22,144 nt of DNA from Haplosporangium gracile (lineage: Eukaryota; Mortierellomycota; Mortierellomycetes; Mortierellales; Mortierellaceae): the NCBI GenBank assembly GCA_015499985.1, contig JAAAUF010000697.1:1-22144 (forward strand), in the 5' to 3' direction. The notes beneath the pieces are model-generated. The model did not search any database, was not told where the DNA came from, and saw only the letters and a list, made by a program, of their open reading frames with translations. Made by a program: the position numbers and the translations under genes. Shown piece by piece: positions 1 through 16,847 of this stretch; position 1 is the stretch's first letter; every line of letters starts with the position of its first letter.

Positions 1-424
1 CCCACCACCACTCATTCTTCCTCTCTGCTACTGCATCGGCATCTGCTCGCTTCAGCATCTGCCATCCCTCCTCCTTCTCCCACCATTCCTTGCCTTCTTC
101 GTCATCGCGCTTCGCATGTCCGGGGCGCATTGACAGCTCACCACCAGAGGGCTCAGGTTTCTCGACAGCGGTGGGATGCGTTTTACCCAGACTAATCATT
201 CCTTTAACACTACCGTTGGTGCTGCTGCCGGCGCGACGGTTAAGGAGGGGACCGCGGGGACCGACGGGGACGGTAGGAGCCCCTGGATCGGCCTGCTGGA
301 CAACGTTAATACGACCGGGGGCGGCGTGGACGGTGGAGGTGTTGATGACTGTGAGAACCGCGAGGAGTGCCATCGAGAGGGTGATCAACTTGACGGCCGA
401 GGAGATCGAGGCAGAGAGTTTCAT
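1..424 (-). CDS. Secreted Kex2-type peptide precursor, 3' end off the window
   Basis: The frame is open from the ATG at 424 down to the left edge with no stop, giving 141 visible residues. Residues 1-35 form a classic signal peptide: K2, a hydrophobic core around 12-27, then a small-residue cleavage region ending HAA. The mature part is Pro/Gly-rich with an RR at 63-64. From residue 104 the character changes: AKR (104-106), the acidic Trp-rich segment DDEEGKEWWEKEEGWQML (107-124), KR (125-126), an alternating ADADAVAE spacer (127-134), then RK and NEWWW at the edge. Dibasic KR followed by an alternating X-Ala spacer is what Kex2 and Ste13-type dipeptidyl aminopeptidases process in yeast alpha-factor precursors and in fungal Kex2-processed repeat proteins. 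I see the layout directly; the function (pheromone-like or other secreted peptide) is inference. The leader is CA/A-rich with a TATA-like site about 190 nt upstream. An ordinary low-complexity secreted protein is the alternative. Confidence 0.72.
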   Translation of the reverse strand, partial: MKLSASISSAVKLITLSMALLAVLTVINTSTVHAAPGRINVVQQADPGAPTVPVGPRGPLLNRRAGSSTNGSVKGMISLGKTHPTAVEKPEPSGGELSMRPGHAKRDDEEGKEWWEKEEGWQMLKRADADAVAERKNEWWW

Positions 425-2937: not shown

Positions 2938-2961
2938 ATGTGGGATATAGAACACAAATGA
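2938..2961 (+). promoter_or_regulatory. 7-codon upstream ORF overlapping the NACHT-WD40 start
   Basis: An ATG at 2938 opens the peptide MWDIEHK and stops at TGA 2959-2961, which overlaps the main ATG (2958-2960) as ATGA in another frame. If the transcript starts upstream of 2938, ribosomes would meet this ATG first and reach the main start by leaky scanning or by termination-reinitiation. The transcript start is not known. Confidence 0.4.
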
Positions 2962-5900
2962 CTACCACAAGGCAAAGAAAGGGATCTGCTGTCCCCTGTT
3001 CGACGCCCACTTCAGCCCAATCTCGGTTCACACAATTGGAAGTGGCGGCCAAGAAGCTGCTTCGGTTCAACATTGACTCCAAGAAACGAACGGTACCCAA
3101 TGCACTCGCATTAATTCAATTTGGGACGCTCGAGATGCTTGTTCCTCAGGACTACGCAGGAGGCAACACTTCAACTTCAACCACCGCCACCACTGCCACA
3201 GCCGCCTCCACTAACACCACCATCTCATCATATTCCCCTCCAGCCATCTCTCAGCCTTGGCTGCATGTCTTTCCTACGAACGTCAACCAACCCTCACTCC
3301 ACGTTACAATTCCGCTTCCTGGAGCTCGCCTCGAAACTACATTACAGTTAGCTTATTGCAGCAATTTACTCCGCACTCATCTGTCGCCCTCATCGGCTGT
3401 CACAAGCATCTCTGGCCCTCTGAACCCATCTCAAAAAGCATCAATAGACGCCATCCTTAACAGCAAGGAGGAGCAAGACCACATCCGCGAAATGACGATC
3501 AGGGTCATTGAAGAGTTTGTAAATGACGGTCTCAAGACGTCGGAAAAGATCTCCGAGGTCGTTCTTCTGGGTCCTTGCCTTGACCAGGAGTACTACCGCA
3601 AGCTGCTCAACTGTTTCATCGCCGAGTTTGAGACCGCAAGGATGTTGGATCTCGACTTGCTCCAAGGACTGGTCCAGCTTGTTGAGTGTGCTGGACCACT
3701 CTACCTCGTACCAGACGATCTTGTCCGTATCTTAGTTGCACTGCGAACTCGCCTTCAGGGCACTCACCAGCAGACAGCCAAGCACCTTTGCTACTTGTCA
3801 CTGGCGCTTTCTCGTCTCCTCGATGTCATGGTCGAGGGAAAGGTCCGAGACCTGCGACGTGTTGTAGACCATGAACCTTTGTCTGCGATGCTGAGTCAGA
3901 TGATAGAGAGCCCGGATCCATTTCTCAAACATCAGGCGAAATATGCCTTACAGGGTCTGCGACATATACCTGACGACGAAACGCGCTGCCAGTATATATT
4001 GCGACACGCTGGAAACATTGCCATGGGTCTTCTCGGAGTGGCCAGTGTGTGCAAGTTAGACCTAGGCGAGTCTAAGAACGGAGTCAATCATTTATACAAA
4101 GCCGCGGGAGAGGCTCATGAGGTCAGCATCAAAATGATCGACGGCTTTCGAGCATTACGGGAAAGCGGCCAGGATATTACTGCGAGCATCAAAGTAGGTA
4201 TTTTGTCTGGCGGTAGACGACTGTGGTACGCTGCTCTGCGCGAGGCTCAGGAGCATGTTCGCAGCGGTCGGTTGGCAGAGTTCAACCGCCTTGTCTTTGC
4301 GGCGCCCTGTCGTCAGGATGTCGAATTCCAGTGGGGAGTCTGTCAGCTCCTTGGAGAGCTTGCCCTCGACCCGCAATGGGGCGTTACCACCCGCCAGCAA
4401 GCTGTTAACTTTCTTGCCGAACTTTACAAGAGCAGCACCAACTTGACCTCCAAGGATGAGGTTTTCAGGTGGATCTTAATCACCATACACCAAGTCGCTG
4501 CCTTACCTGAAATCGCCATCTCAGAACATGCCCGATTGATGCTCCAAAGTCTAGAGAGAGATGGCGATTCTGCGAAGCAGGCTCTTTACCGTGACTTTCG
4601 TGCCTCTCCTCCTAGTGCTTTTCATGTGAAAGTCCGCTTGTCTGCTCTGCAGAACTCTTCTCCGATACTTGCTCGCGTTCAGGATGTTCCCGATGTGGAG
4701 TACGACTTTCACAGACTTCGATCCCAACGATTGAAGGAGCGAGCGAATGCTCTGTACATTCCACCTCAAGCCAAGCCCTCGCTCCAATCTTCTGACGACA
4801 CCTTGTTTCTCCTGATGGAGAAGACGCTCGAGTTCTTGGCAGGTCCTGGTCTTGTACTTCTATTGCTGGGTGATTCAGGAGGAGGAAAGTCGACATTCAA
4901 CCATCAACTCGAGCACGGTCTTTGGAAGGACTATAAGCGAGGCGGCACCATCCCGCTTCACATCAACCTTCCAGCTATCAACAACCCGCAGGACGACATG
5001 ATCGAAAAACAGTTGCGATCACTCCATCTCTTCTCCGATGCGCAGATTCAGGAGCTCAGACAGAGCCGACAGTTTATTGTCATTTGCGACGGGTACGATG
5101 AGAGTCAGCTCAAGAGGAACCTGTACACTTCCAATCTCTTCAATCAGCCAGGACAGTGGAGAGCCAAAACGATCATCAGCTGCAGGAGCCAGTACTTGGG
5201 TCCCGACTACCGCGCACGCTTCCAACCAACTCTCGATCCTTACCAGAAACCAGTGGCCGAGCATTTCCAAGAAGCTGTCATTGCGCCGTTTTCGAGGGAT
5301 CGAATCGAGCAGTATGTTGAGCAATTCGTCCAGCAACCGCCTTCACACGCCATGGATGTCGCTCAGACGAGCTGGACCACCAAAGATTACATGGACAAGT
5401 TGATCAAGATCCCTGGCCTGATCGAGTTGGTGTCCAACCCTTTTCTTCTTACGCTGGCTCTAAGAGCCCTACCCATGGTTATCCGCTCTGAGAAGAGCTT
5501 GTCTGAGGTTCGCCTCACCCGCATTGGACTATACGACAACTTCACAAATCAGTGGCTGGAGACGAACAAGCGACGTCTAGAGGGGAGTTTACTGTCATCA
5601 GAGGCACAGGCGACATTCGACAACTTACTCGAAGCGGGATTTATTCAGTATGGGATCAGCTATCAAAAGGGTCTTGCCGCCGCCATCTTTCAGCACCAGG
5701 ACGGAGCCCCAGTAGTCGAATACACGCATTTGCGGGAGAGCCAGACTTGGAAGGCGGTGTTCTTTTCTCCAGATATCCAGGCTACTCTTCTCCGAGAATC
5801 CAGTCCGATTTCTCGATCCGCCAACCAGTACCGGTTCCTTCACCGCTCGATCTTGGAGTACTTTTACTCTCGCGTAGTGTCGGATCCATTCGATTGCAAC

Positions 5901-8246
5901 CAGTTGCCAGAACATGAAACTGCAACGACCGAGTCTAGCGAGTTCTTTGCCAGTCATCCCCTGAACCAGAGGAGTATTGTCGAAGAGCCTTCAATCTTAC
6001 AGTTCTTGGCCGAGCGTGTGGAACTGGACGTCTCATTCAAGACCTGCCTTCTCACTGCTATCGAGGGTTCGAAGACGAATGAGACAATTAGCCAGGCGGC
6101 GGCGAATGCCATCTCGATTTTGGTCAGGGCAGGGATTCGATTCAACGGCACGGACCTAAGGGGAATCATGATTCAAGGAGCTGATCTTTGTGGCGGACAG
6201 TTCGATTCCGCAAACTTTGAGGGCGCCAACCTGAGTGGCGTCAACTTGACCAAGACATGGCTTCGACAGGTGAATTTTGGTAATACGCAGATGTCAGGAG
6301 TACAGTTTGGCGAGCTGCCGCATCTTGTGTTAGCGAAGAACAGCGTCGTACATATTGTTTTTTCATATGGTGGGGATCTCCTCGCAGTGTCGACCGAACG
6401 TTCGATAGTTGTCATTTTCGATACGGCAACATGGACTATTATTGCCGCTCATCCCGGAGGAGGAGCCATTGACATTTCACCAATCACCCGCGAGCTTGCC
6501 AAGGGTAGGAAAGACAGCACTGTTGAACTGGGCGATGTCCTCACCGGAGAACTTCGACTTGTCTTGGCCGGTCACGGTGACGAGGTTACATGCATCACCT
6601 ATTCGTCCGACGGGACACAAATTGCTACTGCCAGCACAGACGCCACAGCACGGATCTGGTCGACTCTCTCTGGCGACAGCCTTCACACCTTTTGCGGTCA
6701 TCACGAGGCTGTTTTTGGCGTTGCTTTTTCGCCTACCGGCTTACAGCTTGTAACATCCAGCAAGGACAAGACCATACGAACGTGGAACACCCAGACAGGA
6801 GAGCCTTTGTTCATTTTGAATGGTCACACCGACCCTGTACTTTGCGTCACATATTCTCCTGATGGCAGCCAGATTGCTTCAGGAGACAAAAGTAATGCGG
6901 TTGCACTATGGAGCGCAAGTTCAGGCGAGCTTCTCCATGGTCTGTCCAGACCAGTTGGTATGATCTCTGATGTGGCATTCTCTCTAGATGGTCGCCAGGT
7001 CGCCTCCTGTGGCGAGGATGGGACTGTTCGCCTTTGGGATGCCTCTACCGGTGAATGCGTTAACATCCTCTCTGGACATCTCTTCGGCGTCACTAGTGTC
7101 GCCTATTCACCGAACGGCAGATTCATTGCCTCTGGTTCAGTTGATGAAACTGTAAGGCTTTGGAAGGTCGGATCAGTTTTTTCAGATGTAGAGTCGGGTG
7201 TTAATCCAAACGCTTGGCAAAATTTCGACATGTCCCCAGATGGAGCGTGGGTTGTCACAAGCAACAGTGATGGCGGAGCAGCGCAGCTCTGGGAGACACG
7301 GACAGGAGAACCTGGGGCGATTTTGAAGGGTCATACAGAGGCGGTAAATGAAGTTGCATTTTCACCCTGTGGACAAAATATCGTTTCGGTCAGTGATGAT
7401 ACAACCGTGCGACTTTGGTGCGCTCGAACAGGGATGTCGCTACAAGTCTTGAAGGGTCACACAGAGTGCGTTATAGGTGTTGCTTTCTCGCCTTGCGGGC
7501 GCCAGGTCGTCTCATGTGGCAACGACAGGACTTTGAGAACCTGGGACAGTAAGACAGGAGCGCCTAGCCATATCCTGGAAGGTCATATCGACACTATCAG
7601 AGGAGCAACATATTCACCAAGCGGTCACCAGATTGCTTCCTGCAGTGATGACAAGACCCTCCGACTGTGGTGTGTCCAAACCGGAACGCAGCTTTTTTTC
7701 ATGGATCATTCTGCAGAAGTCGACCGAGTGGCGTTTTCTCCAGACGGGCAAGAACTCGTTTCGGTTTCGATGTCGTACAGTGAGCTTCGTTGTTGGGATC
7801 CACAGTTTGGTGGGCGCCTTGAAAGACTGGACTTGGAGGCAAAATCATACGGGGTGTTTTGCTGTTGCTATTCACCCATCGGGCAGCAGCTTGTTGTCAC
7901 TGCCGGAACTGACGGAATGATGCGAGTATGGGATTGCAGTCCGGGTCATAGTCATTGGTTAGAGGTCTTTCGAACCATGATTGGGATCGTTTTCAAGATC
8001 CAATGGAGGCAAAGCAGTTCCGGAGATTCGTACCTGGTCACTCTAGGTGTTGGAACCATCCGTGTCTGGAACCTGGTAGAAGAGGAGAAAAAGTACTCTT
8101 TGCGGCTGGTCTGGAGCATGGGGAAGAAGGAACTGTCGTTTGAGAATACGAACTTGAGCAGTGCAGTTGGATTGAGTCCCGTCGATCTCAAGTTGGCAAA
8201 GCAGCGTGGAGCTATTATCGCGCCCAGGGACATGGCAATTGAATGA
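2958..8246 (+). CDS. STAND/NLR-like protein: helical N-terminus, NACHT, pentapeptide strip, WD40 propellers
   Basis: A single-exon gene encoding 1,762 aa. The frame is open from a GTG at 2940, but the first in-frame ATG, at 2958, is the plausible start. Residues about 25-600 are predominantly helical and repeat-like, resembling an ARM/HEAT-type platform (inference from composition). The NACHT NTPase has Walker A GDSGGGKST at 638-646 and Walker B FIVICDGYDE at 706-715. The motif FLHRSILEYF at 960-969 is the usual end of a STAND NTPase module. About 1062-1118 is a pentapeptide-repeat strip of A(N/D)LxG-like units. From about 1125 to 1740 I count roughly 14 WD40 blades; well-formed ones end IW at 1234 and VW at 1704, with clear GH and (R/L)xW motifs between, enough for two seven-bladed propellers. 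By family knowledge such proteins are nucleotide-driven oligomerising switches with WD40 sensors (fungal HET-E type). The blades are diverged, not near-identical. The ligand and effector output are unknown. Confidence 0.93.
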   Translation: MTTTRQRKGSAVPCSTPTSAQSRFTQLEVAAKKLLRFNIDSKKRTVPNALALIQFGTLEMLVPQDYAGGNTSTSTTATTATAASTNTTISSYSPPAISQPWLHVFPTNVNQPSLHVTIPLPGARLETTLQLAYCSNLLRTHLSPSSAVTSISGPLNPSQKASIDAILNSKEEQDHIREMTIRVIEEFVNDGLKTSEKISEVVLLGPCLDQEYYRKLLNCFIAEFETARMLDLDLLQGLVQLVECAGPLYLVPDDLVRILVALRTRLQGTHQQTAKHLCYLSLALSRLLDVMVEGKVRDLRRVVDHEPLSAMLSQMIESPDPFLKHQAKYALQGLRHIPDDETRCQYILRHAGNIAMGLLGVASVCKLDLGESKNGVNHLYKAAGEAHEVSIKMIDGFRALRESGQDITASIKVGILSGGRRLWYAALREAQEHVRSGRLAEFNRLVFAAPCRQDVEFQWGVCQLLGELALDPQWGVTTRQQAVNFLAELYKSSTNLTSKDEVFRWILITIHQVAALPEIAISEHARLMLQSLERDGDSAKQALYRDFRASPPSAFHVKVRLSALQNSSPILARVQDVPDVEYDFHRLRSQRLKERANALYIPPQAKPSLQSSDDTLFLLMEKTLEFLAGPGLVLLLLGDSGGGKSTFNHQLEHGLWKDYKRGGTIPLHINLPAINNPQDDMIEKQLRSLHLFSDAQIQELRQSRQFIVICDGYDESQLKRNLYTSNLFNQPGQWRAKTIISCRSQYLGPDYRARFQPTLDPYQKPVAEHFQEAVIAPFSRDRIEQYVEQFVQQPPSHAMDVAQTSWTTKDYMDKLIKIPGLIELVSNPFLLTLALRALPMVIRSEKSLSEVRLTRIGLYDNFTNQWLETNKRRLEGSLLSSEAQATFDNLLEAGFIQYGISYQKGLAAAIFQHQDGAPVVEYTHLRESQTWKAVFFSPDIQATLLRESSPISRSANQYRFLHRSILEYFYSRVVSDPFDCNQLPEHETATTESSEFFASHPLNQRSIVEEPSILQFLAERVELDVSFKTCLLTAIEGSKTNETISQAAANAISILVRAGIRFNGTDLRGIMIQGADLCGGQFDSANFEGANLSGVNLTKTWLRQVNFGNTQMSGVQFGELPHLVLAKNSVVHIVFSYGGDLLAVSTERSIVVIFDTATWTIIAAHPGGGAIDISPITRELAKGRKDSTVELGDVLTGELRLVLAGHGDEVTCITYSSDGTQIATASTDATARIWSTLSGDSLHTFCGHHEAVFGVAFSPTGLQLVTSSKDKTIRTWNTQTGEPLFILNGHTDPVLCVTYSPDGSQIASGDKSNAVALWSASSGELLHGLSRPVGMISDVAFSLDGRQVASCGEDGTVRLWDASTGECVNILSGHLFGVTSVAYSPNGRFIASGSVDETVRLWKVGSVFSDVESGVNPNAWQNFDMSPDGAWVVTSNSDGGAAQLWETRTGEPGAILKGHTEAVNEVAFSPCGQNIVSVSDDTTVRLWCARTGMSLQVLKGHTECVIGVAFSPCGRQVVSCGNDRTLRTWDSKTGAPSHILEGHIDTIRGATYSPSGHQIASCSDDKTLRLWCVQTGTQLFFMDHSAEVDRVAFSPDGQELVSVSMSYSELRCWDPQFGGRLERLDLEAKSYGVFCCCYSPIGQQLVVTAGTDGMMRVWDCSPGHSHWLEVFRTMIGIVFKIQWRQSSSGDSYLVTLGVGTIRVWNLVEEEKKYSLRLVWSMGKKELSFENTNLSSAVGLSPVDLKLAKQRGAIIAPRDMAIE

Positions 8247-10211: not shown

Positions 10212-11605
10212 CTATTCGATATGGAGAAGCTTGCCCTGGCGGAAACGATACCAGAGCTTGGCAGGGAGGAACCATTCACGCTGCTGGATGTTGGGTGCCA
10301 GAGGGTTGAAATCTGCCTTCTCTAACCGGGCGAGGTACGACTCTGTAGGGATTCCCGCCATCAGCACAGGCAGTGCTTCCTGGGGTAAGTTGCCCATATA
10401 TGACTGTGCGGTCGCCAAATGGACATGAGCTGCTGTTGCTACTTCCAATGTTGCGTCCTGAAGAGCCGGTGTGATTGTTGGGTTCCTGAACAATGCTTCC
10501 TGTGACAAGTTGTGCTAATTGTTTTCAAGTTTCAAAGATGCGGAGAAAAATATATGTCAGCGGCTGTCACGCTTTGCCCGTTTTTCACATAGCCATGCTG
10601 AGTGTCTAGTCCTGCATAGAGTAGTTACCTTGGCAGTGATCTCGGCAGGAATGACCATGCGGTTTTGGTGCATGTGGAATGGGAAGGCACGCAACATGGT
10701 CGCAATGCCCATAGCCTTGGCCATATGACTGGCAGCATGATCTGCCTCTAACGACTTAACACCCACTGACTCCAACTGCAAGTACAGCAATGACCCAAAA
10801 GTGTTCTCGCAGTACGTCTCCATCTGCCCCAAAGTCATGAACTGTGGGTCGGACAAGTTCTGTTCTCGCTCTGTGATCATCCTCTTGAACCAGATCAATG
10901 ACATCTCTGAATCGCCGCCGTTTCCTCCTTGCTGCTGGTGGTGAAGCTCCTGCTCCTGAATGGCATGAGCAAGCGCCAGGGCGACGGGTTGTTGTGGTGG
11001 CATGCCTGCGAAGATCTTGTCCAATGTGTCTCTCCAGAACTGCATCCGCATGCGGCCAATGTCCGTGTTGCTAACCGACTCTCGGATCGAGGCCAGCTCG
11101 ATGTTAAATGCTCGGAGGGCCAGTTGGGTAGGCTTTTGGTGTGCTGGAAAGAACTGTGAACAGAGGAACCCCTCATAATCTGCTTTTCTACAAAGTTAAA
11201 TGATATACGGACAAGTTAGGTATCATCGTAGTTTGCTCCGCACTTGCTCGTTGGATACAGAGCCAAGAAGTTCGATCACTCAGAGTGAACATACCGAACG
11301 AGGTTTTCGCAGTATTCAATGGCTTTTGTAGGCTTGGGCATGATCTCCTTGACAACCTTCTTCTTGGAAGACCGGCTGTTGGCTCCCAAGGAGAAAGGCG
11401 ACTGCTTCTTTGGTTCTTGGTGGTGGTGGTGGGTATGGTCGTGGTCGTGGTTGCAGTTGTGATCGTGTACATGGGCAAACCCACGACGGGCGACTGTTGA
11501 GGCCGCCATGGGACTGGACCACTGTGCATTCCTGACAAGGGTTGCGCTGCCTAGTTGACGCTGTGCGACTGTGTTCCCTGAATGAACGATTCCTGTAGCC
11601 TTCAT
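10212..11605 (-). CDS. NDUFAF6: Mitochondrial complex I assembly factor NDUFAF6 (squalene/phytoene synthase fold)
   Basis: Three exons: 11605-11295, 11187-10629 and 10514-10212. The introns (11294-11188, GTATGT...TAG; 10628-10515, GTAACT...TAG) keep phase and give 390 aa. Residues 1-44 are Arg-bearing and poor in acids, as in a mitochondrial presequence, with RRGFA at 40-44. A His-rich tract follows at 45-62. The conserved body starts near YCENLV (98-103). It contains ALRAFNIELASIRESVS (127-143), GRMRMQFW (148-155), the PPQQPVALAL region, ENTFGSLLYLQLE and ADHAASHMAKAMGI; exon 3 carries HNLSQEALFRN and the C-terminal LEKADFNPLAP. These blocks match animal NDUFAF6 closely. RESVS stands where active squalene/phytoene synthases have a DxxxD-type metal motif, so it is a non-prenyl-synthase relative. 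Family role: assembly of complex I, ND1 module, in the matrix. It is divergently transcribed from the zinc-finger gene. Confidence 0.93.
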
Positions 11606-14623: not shown

Positions 14624-14789
14624 CCGCTAAAATGCAGATCGAGTTTGATCAACACAAAAATGGCGTCCGTTGTTTTTTTAATTTTTCCATTTCTCTTTTT
14701 ATCCCACAATTTCCACACCGGTCACCTCCTCACCGGTCCCAACAAGATCCGACAACGCCCCTCCCCCCACAACAACCATCCGACAAGTA

Positions 14790-16847
14790 ATGGATATCCC
14801 AGAGATCAGGTGCCTGGTCGCAGAGCAGATGGAACTGGACACATTGTGCTCCGCAGCACTGGTTTCCAGAGCCTGGCGCGACACCTGTATGCCCTTGATC
14901 TGGAACAACATCTCCTGGACCTCGCAGGTTAACGAACGTCCCACACCTGAGGCGCTACTTGCCAACGCGCACCTTGTGAGGACGGTTACTATTTTCACGA
15001 TGAAGCTTGATGCTCCCAGTAACGGCGGCTGCGGTACTGGAGACAGTGGAAACGGAGGTAGAGAAGCAGACGTAGGAACAGAGACAGGAACAGCAACAGG
15101 AACAGCAATGGAAGTCGTTGGCGGAGGTCCTGCAAGCGGAGAATCAGTAGAAATCAACGAGGCTGCTCCTGCTGAAGAATCAGGAAAAGCACATATTGGG
15201 GCAACAACAAAACCTGGAGGAGGGTTCCCGTTTGCACCATGTCGGAGGATCGAGGAACTCAACTTGCAACTTAACATCCGGCAGGCTCCATTATGGGATC
15301 ATCTCACCGACCTTGTCAAGCACAACCCAGGACTCAGGACCCTCTCCGTCTTTCTCTCTGGTGTGCCCCCAACCCTCGAGTTCATGCAAACCCTGGCAAG
15401 GTCCAACACCTCTTCACCAGCCTCGTCGCCATCCACCTCGTACACGTCACCTTCATCCCCACACGGATCAGGGACAGGATCAGGAGGTGGAGGGCTGAAG
15501 ACGTTCATGACAATGTTCTTGGATTTGAATAAACAGACCACAGAAGCCCTCCTCGATTTGGCCACAAAACTAGAGTCCCTTCAACTTAACGGCGCCACCA
15601 CCGTAGATCCAGGATCTCTCGACCGCTGGCCCGTCTTCCCAAACCTCGTAGTGCTCAAACTCGGACTCAGTTCTGGAATCACCCCTCACCATCAGCTCCA
15701 GATCATTCAACGGTGTCCTCAATTACAGTCTTTGGCTTGGGATTTGGAAGAGTCAGCGGCGACGGGACCGTTGACGTATGATGGTCCGCAGAATCCTACA
15801 CCGGATACGACGGCGTATTATAACTATCGGTTTCCCACCACGGCGGTGTGCCAGTTGTTTGAGCCCACATTTTGTCCGCAGTTGGAGAAGTTGTCGATTA
15901 CTTATCCGGCGCTATCAGATCAAGAGTTGGCCAGGGTTGTTGAGGCCTGTCCGAGGTTGACGTTGTTCGAGGTCTTTGAGACGGGCTTTGGAGTGAGGGC
16001 TTTTCATGCCATGACGAGGCACTTTGTGCACTTGACACGGCTAGATATCAGGAGGTGTTCGGGAGTTACGAGTCCGATGGCGCAGAGGATCTTGACGTCT
16101 TGTAGGAATTTGGTTTTTTTTTGTGGAGACGCCCTTCATGCCCGGGACATTGTCGGCTTCCATTCTCAACAACTCCAAGAAATCAACGCCGACAGGACGG
16201 TACAGTCTCCACAGGAACAACAACTCCAACCACAGGACTGGGTCTGTAACGACCTAACCTGGTTAACACTTTACATCTGCGGGCTCGAAAACGCCCCGCC
16301 CACCTGGTTACCCATAGTCCTGGCCCAACTCGCCCGCCTCACCTCCCTCGACTTCCTCACAATCTCCCCCACAGGTCCCGAATTCGACGGCACAAAAGAC
16401 GGACTCCCCCTCACCCTCTCCTCTGGCCTCTCCACCCTGTCAACACTCACGAACCTCGAACGGTTCTGTTTCCATGGTCTAGCACAAGAGATGCAGGAAG
16501 AAGATGTCCAGTGGATGGTCGACTCCTGGCCGCGGTTGGTGAGAGTCGAGGGGGTTGTGCACCCCGAGAGGGAGAGACGGATGGCGATTGAACCGATAAT
16601 GAGGAGGGAGGGGATTGAGGTGTGTGGGTACTTTGGGGATGATGATGAGGATGTTTTGGGGTTGCATGTTATTGCGTCTGAGGATGAGGATGGGGAGGAG
16701 ATTGATTTTGGAGGGCAGGAGGATATGTTGGAGGATGAGGAGGCAGTTTTGGAAGGTTTGGGTAGTGCTGCAGATCAGCCAGCTGAAGGAAATCCTCTAC
16801 CTCCACCAGCCCTCCCTCAAGAAGCCCAGGACCAGGATCATGTTTAG
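14790..16847 (+). CDS. F-box-like/LRR-like protein
   Basis: A single-exon gene of 685 aa, stop TAG at 16845-16847. Residues 1-43 have the F-box-like pattern: IPEIRCLVAEQMELDTL, then AALVSRAWRDTCMPLIW. The ATG at 14790 places this domain right at the N-terminus, as is usual for the family. Residues about 73-148 are a Gly/Thr/Glu-rich low-complexity insert. From about 150 to 600 there are repeated leucine-patterned units (for example LRTLSVFLSG, LEKLSITYPALSDQELARV, LTRLDIRRCSGVTSPMAQRI), typical of LRR/AMN1-type repeats. About 610-685 is strongly acidic and ends Pro-rich. By family role the F-box binds Skp1 in an SCF ubiquitin ligase and the LRRs recruit a substrate, which cannot be named here. 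It is convergent with the GGPP synthase gene; the stops are 118 nt apart, so the 3' UTRs may abut or overlap. No clear AATAAA was seen. Confidence 0.85.
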   Translation: MDIPEIRCLVAEQMELDTLCSAALVSRAWRDTCMPLIWNNISWTSQVNERPTPEALLANAHLVRTVTIFTMKLDAPSNGGCGTGDSGNGGREADVGTETGTATGTAMEVVGGGPASGESVEINEAAPAEESGKAHIGATTKPGGGFPFAPCRRIEELNLQLNIRQAPLWDHLTDLVKHNPGLRTLSVFLSGVPPTLEFMQTLARSNTSSPASSPSTSYTSPSSPHGSGTGSGGGGLKTFMTMFLDLNKQTTEALLDLATKLESLQLNGATTVDPGSLDRWPVFPNLVVLKLGLSSGITPHHQLQIIQRCPQLQSLAWDLEESAATGPLTYDGPQNPTPDTTAYYNYRFPTTAVCQLFEPTFCPQLEKLSITYPALSDQELARVVEACPRLTLFEVFETGFGVRAFHAMTRHFVHLTRLDIRRCSGVTSPMAQRILTSCRNLVFFCGDALHARDIVGFHSQQLQEINADRTVQSPQEQQLQPQDWVCNDLTWLTLYICGLENAPPTWLPIVLAQLARLTSLDFLTISPTGPEFDGTKDGLPLTLSSGLSTLSTLTNLERFCFHGLAQEMQEEDVQWMVDSWPRLVRVEGVVHPERERRMAIEPIMRREGIEVCGYFGDDDEDVLGLHVIASEDEDGEEIDFGGQEDMLEDEEAVLEGLGSAADQPAEGNPLPPPALPQEAQDQDHV

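Follow-up and report, generated by a model that had tools for sequence, protein, structure and literature searches.

A contig-edge gene of Haplosporangium gracile and a Mortierellaceae family of probable kexin-processed multi-peptide precursors

The window analyzed here, 22,144 bases of Haplosporangium gracile DNA, carries at one end a gene of a family so far known from Mortierellaceae, whose members, judged from their sequences, are probably multi-peptide precursors processed by kexin. The gene is real and correctly read, and it is truncated by the assembly, since the window spans its contig (C843, in a 37.5-Mb assembly of 1,157 contigs) from end to end. Nine relatives were found in six Mortierellaceae fungi, and these relatives, more than the fragment, carry the evidence for the family.

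On the minus strand, the open reading frames of the window include one that starts with the ATG at position 424 and stays open to base 2, giving the 5' part of the gene as 141 codons (2..424) without an end at the contig edge. The encoded fragment of 141 aa had no match in Pfam, and the window had none in Rfam at gathering scores. All features that follow are on the minus strand. The protein begins with a probable signal peptide (residues 1 to 35, 320..424) with the hydrophobic stretch LITLSMALLAVLTVI and a probable cleavage near HAA-P, which looks typical on inspection of the sequence. The Pro-rich segment PGRINVVQQADPGAPTVPVGPRGPLLN (residues 36 to 62, 239..319) leads to the dibasic site RR (residues 63 and 64, 233..238), dibasic in 8/8 covering rows of the family alignment. 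A segment running from AGSSTN to LGKTHPTAVEKPEPSGGELSMRPGHA (residues 65 to 104, 113..232) comes next; its LGKTHPxAVEKPEPSGG part, which matches the best Trp unit approximately in conservation, may be one of the peptides released. The first KR (residues 105 and 106, 107..112) is dibasic in 9/9 covering rows and opens the acidic Trp unit DDEEGKEWWEKEEGWQML (residues 107 to 124, 53..106), whose W115 column is Trp in 7/7. The second KR (residues 125 and 126, 47..52) lies in a column that is dibasic in 5/7 rows and stands at the same position in BG015_010432 of L. schmuckeri and BGZ47_001411 of H. gracile. The alternating spacer ADADAVAE (residues 127 to 134, 23..46), identical in BGZ47_001411, and RKNEWWW (residues 135 to 141, 2..22), cut at the contig edge, complete the fragment. 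Here the relatives go on with GPKAKR or SPKAKR, and the one leftover base at the edge, a G on the minus strand, could open a Gly codon as in the NEWWWG of H. gracile. The first-pass annotation had described a signal peptide, KR, an acidic EWW/GWQM peptide, KR, ADADAVAE and NEWWW at the edge, and all of these parts are present in that order; its list omitted the RR at residues 63 and 64 and the 40-residue stretch from there to the first KR. The aligner pairs the EWW of the window with AWWMQKR or ARWMQKR of relatives and its GWQMLKR with WEILKR of BG015_010432, other placements of DDEEGKEWWEKEEGWQML being uncertain.

The window also holds other genes. On the plus strand, a 1763-residue frame at 2955..8243 has an ARM-like domain (PF23948), many WD40 matches, a pentapeptide-like stretch and the motif GDSGGGKST, which we take to be a P-loop. 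It resembles the NLR-type (NACHT-WD40) proteins of fungi; the NACHT family was not among the best 25 of 48 families for this frame. The minus-strand gene at 10557..11195 encodes a squalene/phytoene synthase domain (PF00494, E = 8.2e-38) and is possibly an NDUFAF6-type relative, and a 721-residue plus-strand frame at 14682..16847 gave weak LRR and F-box-like matches, both under the Pfam cut-off.

When the window protein was used as a query against the genome, it matched C843 itself (E = 4.8e-91), as did the family proteins P0004 (E = 0.005 over 26 residues), P0008 and P0005 (BG015_010434). Neither the rest of the gene nor a second copy was found in the assembly, where the sole match outside this contig was weak (C365, E = 0.10). 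A degenerate NEWWW pattern matched the genome 7 times versus 9 for its reversed control; the 6 that fall elsewhere than in the window are in short frames, judged by eye not to be of the precursor family. The further KR units anticipated beyond the edge are seen in the relatives.

The relatives were collected in three protein searches. With the fragment as query, BG015_010432 of L. schmuckeri was recovered (the closest relative, 79% identical over 100% of the query), together with the partial BGZ47_003605 and, weakly, BGZ47_001411 (E = 0.78), both of H. gracile. The second search, with BGZ47_001411, added BG015_010433 and BG015_010434 of L. schmuckeri. The third used an alignment of six sequences and added BGX30_013582 (Mortierella sp. 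GBA39), KI688_001700 (L. hyalina), EC957_007959 (M. hygrophila) and BGZ97_002795 (L. gamsii); it scored the 7992 candidates sharing most words, so that more distant relatives may be missed. All nine are annotated as hypothetical proteins. L. schmuckeri, H. gracile and M. hygrophila are Mortierellaceae according to the NCBI taxonomy, and L. gamsii, L. hyalina and GBA39 were placed there through the genus name. The L. hyalina relative sits on a 2.2-Mb contig. The three L. schmuckeri genes have consecutive locus tags (BG015_010432 to 010434) and all belong to the precursor family, as a tandem array or as split gene models. Both H. gracile proteins are labelled partial, and both carry the stretch NEWWWGPKAKRSVPAGEEKDAAAVNKR and NEWWWGPKAKR-SVPAGEEKDAAAVNKR, of which there may be two copies; our guess is that, like the window gene, they were broken at a repeat during assembly. 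The first-pass annotation would have been contradicted by a lack of further dibasic-bounded units, or by homologues keeping neither the KR sites nor the Trp peptide; in the relatives, additional units bounded by dibasic sites are present, and many of the KR sites and Trp positions are retained.

Conservation was measured in an alignment of ten rows, the window and the nine relatives, from which P0001, the window's own shorter gene model, was left out. Of 16 segments compared, the signal peptide had the highest mean identity (0.75); FRxWHF had 0.73, LGKTHP..PEPS 0.72 and the ADPxxPRxPVGPRGPLL part of the Pro-rich stretch 0.66. The unit of the window's EWW reached 0.57, AGEE..AAAVN 0.46 and the NEWWW region 0.45, the lowest of the 16; the parts singled out at first are therefore not the best conserved. 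These values lend some weight to a version of the multi-peptide reading, not exclusive of it, in which the active product of the Kex2-processed precursor is the Pro-rich VPVGPRGPLL or LGKTHPxAVEKPEPSGG rather than a Trp peptide, the two segments being about as conserved as FRxWHF and more so than the NEWWW region. However, needs of folding or sorting can also keep a pro-region conserved, and the Trp columns are held too. Past the first KR, the mean pairwise identity of Trp columns was 0.70 versus 0.52 for the rest (p = 0.015), or 0.74 versus 0.48 with the L. hyalina group as one row (p = 0.002), and 6/13 Trp columns were invariant; such column identities are to be read with the tendency of aligners to stack Trp, the common ancestry of the rows and the uncertain alignment of the middle part in mind. 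We regard an N-terminal product as unlikely, though less so than the other alternatives below.

The fragment by itself does not prove the KR pattern, because the 106 residues that follow its signal peptide contain 2 KR, compared with 0.61 on average after shuffling (p = 0.11), and the placement of Trp in the fragment is near random, with 1/6 Trp within 8 residues before KR (random mean, 0.94). The relatives do prove it. KR counts were compared with 5000 shuffles of the same composition in 8/10 sequences including the window, BG015_010433 (P0006) and P0003 being left out. In L. schmuckeri, BG015_010432 had 4 KR versus a shuffled mean of 0.96 and BG015_010434 had 13 versus 2.25; the counts were 12 versus 3.06 in H. 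gracile BGZ47_001411, 8 versus 2.22 in L. gamsii, 9 versus 2.66 in GBA39, 7 versus 2.04 in L. hyalina and 8 versus 2.31 in M. hygrophila. The excess in these seven relatives ranged from 0/5000 shuffles to p = 0.008, so that p was below 0.01 in 7/8 sequences with the window as the exception, and the five relatives of 277 to 340 aa had 7 to 13 KR against shuffled means of 2.0 to 2.7 (p ≤ 0.002). Kexin sites bound short units along the whole of these proteins, and the window fragment has its 2 KR and 1 RR.

These sites also bear on another reading of the family, as a disordered protein of fast evolution, secreted or on the cell surface, whose N-terminal dibasic site alone matters, for removal of a pro-peptide, the other KR and the Trp being side effects of biased composition. 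K and R make up 13 to 23% of residues, and clustering of Trp before KR was not general (p < 0.05 in 2/8 sequences, at 0.023 and 0.048, and 0.066 to 0.64 in the other 6). Seven dibasic columns are only partly kept (5/8, 5/7, 5/7, 3/7, 3/7, 5/6 and 5/7), and several Trp are likewise lost in some rows. Against a composition effect, KR exceeds same-composition shuffles in 7/8 sequences while the reversed pair RK occurs 1 to 4 times per sequence, and dibasic columns are fully kept along the whole length, at columns 70 (8/8), 132 (9/9), 224 (9/9), 293 (4/4) and 328 (7/7), with columns 406 and 407 kept in 3/3 covering rows each. The Trp columns, better conserved than the rest, argue in the same direction. 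Past the first KR, dibasic K/R columns had a mean identity of 0.77 versus 0.59 for other K/R columns (p = 0.019), or 0.71 versus 0.60 with the L. hyalina group as one row (p = 0.098), a comparison that favors the dibasic set because its columns were chosen by presence in at least three rows. On balance, a merely disordered protein is distinctly improbable, and the multi-peptide precursor remains the better account of the family.

The units between the kexin sites are not near-identical repeats, so each precursor looks likely to yield several different peptides. In the 7/10 sequences tested (the window, BG015_010432 and BG015_010433 being left out), the best unit-to-unit score was at the level of shuffles in 6/7 relatives (p = 0.13 to 0.75) and reached p = 0.033 in L. 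gamsii; the summed score gave p = 0.023 in H. gracile BGZ47_001411 and 0.21 to 0.65 in the other 6. In the 340-aa BG015_010434, the units end in AWWMQ-KR, GWWVWND-KR, SRWEF-KR and KFRGWHF-KR, and the C terminus is RRWHW. L. gamsii and H. gracile BGZ47_001411 resemble it toward the C terminus (RRWHW and RRWHL), and the L. hyalina group ends in [FY]RTWHFK[RH]EE. A motif R(x)Wx[FWL] occurs 3 times in 3 of seven relatives tested, twice in 2, once in 1 and not in 1; it was chosen after the sequences had been viewed, so its p-values are not independent evidence. C-terminal amidation, with Gly before KR, was considered and set aside: one H. gracile unit has WNGKR, and other relatives have WNDKR, WNGKG or WNGKA. 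We also note PSGGELSMRPGH, which may bear a likeness to plant secreted peptides. The structure model of BG015_010434 had a mean pLDDT of 47.3, with 248/340 residues below 50, a helix at residues 7 to 28 and, within residues 11 to 30, blocks that reach pLDDT 90 and 83. Apart from the N-terminal helix, no part of it is confidently folded, which agrees with what a precursor should look like, although with ten sequences behind it this is weak evidence of disorder.

A kexin gene is present in the same genome, on contig C386; its peptidase S8 and P domains are spread across three frames, and its best PDB matches are named Kexin (1ot5, E = 5.5e-68). Cutting of the precursor by kexin is therefore possible in H. 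gracile. We infer the following course. A mostly unstructured precursor would be directed by its signal peptide into the secretory pathway, where kexin in the late Golgi would cut after KR and RR and a carboxypeptidase would then trim the basic ends. Several different short peptides, among them acidic Trp-containing ones, would be secreted, and FRxW[HN]F and RWx[FWL] peptides might also be released if the missing part resembles the relatives. By analogy with proposals for other fungal Kex2-processed precursors, the most likely role of such peptides would be extracellular, with other organisms or the producing fungus as the target, rather than that of a canonical alpha-factor mating signal.

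The general layout, with a signal peptide, a pro-region, KR, an Ala-rich spacer and a Trp peptide, is also that of ascomycete alpha-factor precursors. We therefore considered whether the gene might encode an alpha-factor-like mating pheromone used by a fungus of the Mortierellaceae, with Kex2, Kex1 and Ste13 as the trimming enzymes and a receptor of the Ste2/Ste3 type to perceive it. Besides kexin, the genome has DPPIV_N matches on two contigs. In Rhizophagus irregularis, Ste13 signatures have been published for KEPs (Kex2-processed repeat proteins; PMC6339444), and most components of the yeast pheromone pathway are on record too, an orthologue of Ste3 among them (PMC3834313). R. irregularis is the sole early-diverging fungus with such signatures in the set of Le Marquer and co-workers (PMC6339444), so an in-phase signature here would have been notable. 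That signature consists of repeated XA/XP dipeptides after the Kex2 site (PMC7329392). However, the spacer after KR reads AD-AD-AV-AE in the window and H. gracile BGZ47_001411 and AD-AK-AA-AE in BG015_010432, shifted by one residue from the register that XA/XP trimming would require, and is absent from the other 7/10 sequences; none of the 92 positions after KR or RR in the ten sequences starts with two XA/XP pairs, and 1 starts with a single pair. The units moreover differ from one another. Searches of the genome for Ste2 (PF02116) and Ste3 (PF02076) gave no match, although none of 14 control genomes matched either. Trisporic acid is the assumed sexual signal of Mortierella relatives (PMC3834313), in agreement with the first-pass annotation, which had named trisporoids as the mating signals; matches to RPE65-type carotenoid oxygenases on five contigs fit a trisporoid pathway without proving it. 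An alpha-factor-like pheromone is accordingly very unlikely, and a mating function of the peptides more generally, though possible, is unlikely, with nothing specific pointing to mating. What stands of the grammar first proposed is the secreted, Kex2-type multi-peptide precursor, carried by the KR excess and the conserved sites; the alpha-factor parallel fails on the register of the spacer and the differing units.

Dikaritin-type cores show a preference for aromatic residues, and the Kex2-bounded aromatic units match the general layout of such RiPP precursors. Cyclization of the cores by UstYa-family (DUF3328) oxidases is nevertheless very unlikely and the least probable explanation: the units are not repeated, a genome search for UstYa/DUF3328 (PF11807) gave no match (the 14 control genomes being silent too), no such domain was listed for the 8 window frames scanned, which cover one flank of the gene (best 25 of 48 families for the longest frame), and 0/357 Mucoromycota KEP genes in Table 1 of PMC7329392 are accompanied by a DUF3328 gene.

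Under the preferred reading, that of a kexin-processed multi-peptide precursor, the family contributes to the study of Kex2-processed peptides of early-diverging fungi, which have been counted in surveys, through its nine relatives, its conserved cut sites and a handful of candidate peptides. The first-pass annotation held that a peptide signal or effector would be new here; for Mucoromycota this was too strong, because KEPs have been surveyed there (PMC7329392, PMC6339444), with 357 listed in 38/39 strains (PMC7329392, Table 1). In the open-licence literature we found no description of this precursor family or of Mortierella KEPs, and members may stand in the supplementary tables of the surveys. 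What KEPs do in early-diverging fungi is described as an open matter (PMC6339444), and kep deletions in C. cinerea had no detectable phenotype in the account of PMC9769878, whose authors propose that KEPs may take part in interaction with the biotic environment. Should the peptides serve as signals, they would add a peptide channel to fungi with assumed trisporoid sexual signals (PMC3834313). More speculatively, and we think it a long shot, Mortierellaceae might secrete a hitherto undescribed family of linear peptides, Trp-rich ones and aromatic ones of the R(x)Wx[FWL] type, with more than one kind made from each precursor, as a species-specific extracellular signal for recognition of self, mate or partner beside the trisporoids.

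Among known systems, the window gene has most in common with its nine Mortierellaceae relatives, with which it shares the signal peptide and pro-region (where present), the dibasic sites and the Trp positions. Ascomycete alpha-factor precursors are alike in the order of their parts, down to the Ala-rich stretch and the Trp-containing peptide (PMC6339444), whereas here the Ala register is shifted by one, there is no repeated core and the receptor search was empty, with silent controls. KEPs are alike in having a signal peptide and many kexin sites that bound short units, and the surveys require at least three repeats (PMC6339444, PMC7329392); because their units are not near-identical repeats, the relatives fall outside this strict definition, although they follow the same working principle. 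Ece1 of Candida albicans, the candidalysin precursor, is likened here by description only: it has three repeated moieties among eight, and it too is one precursor that Kex2 cuts into different peptides (PMC7329392).
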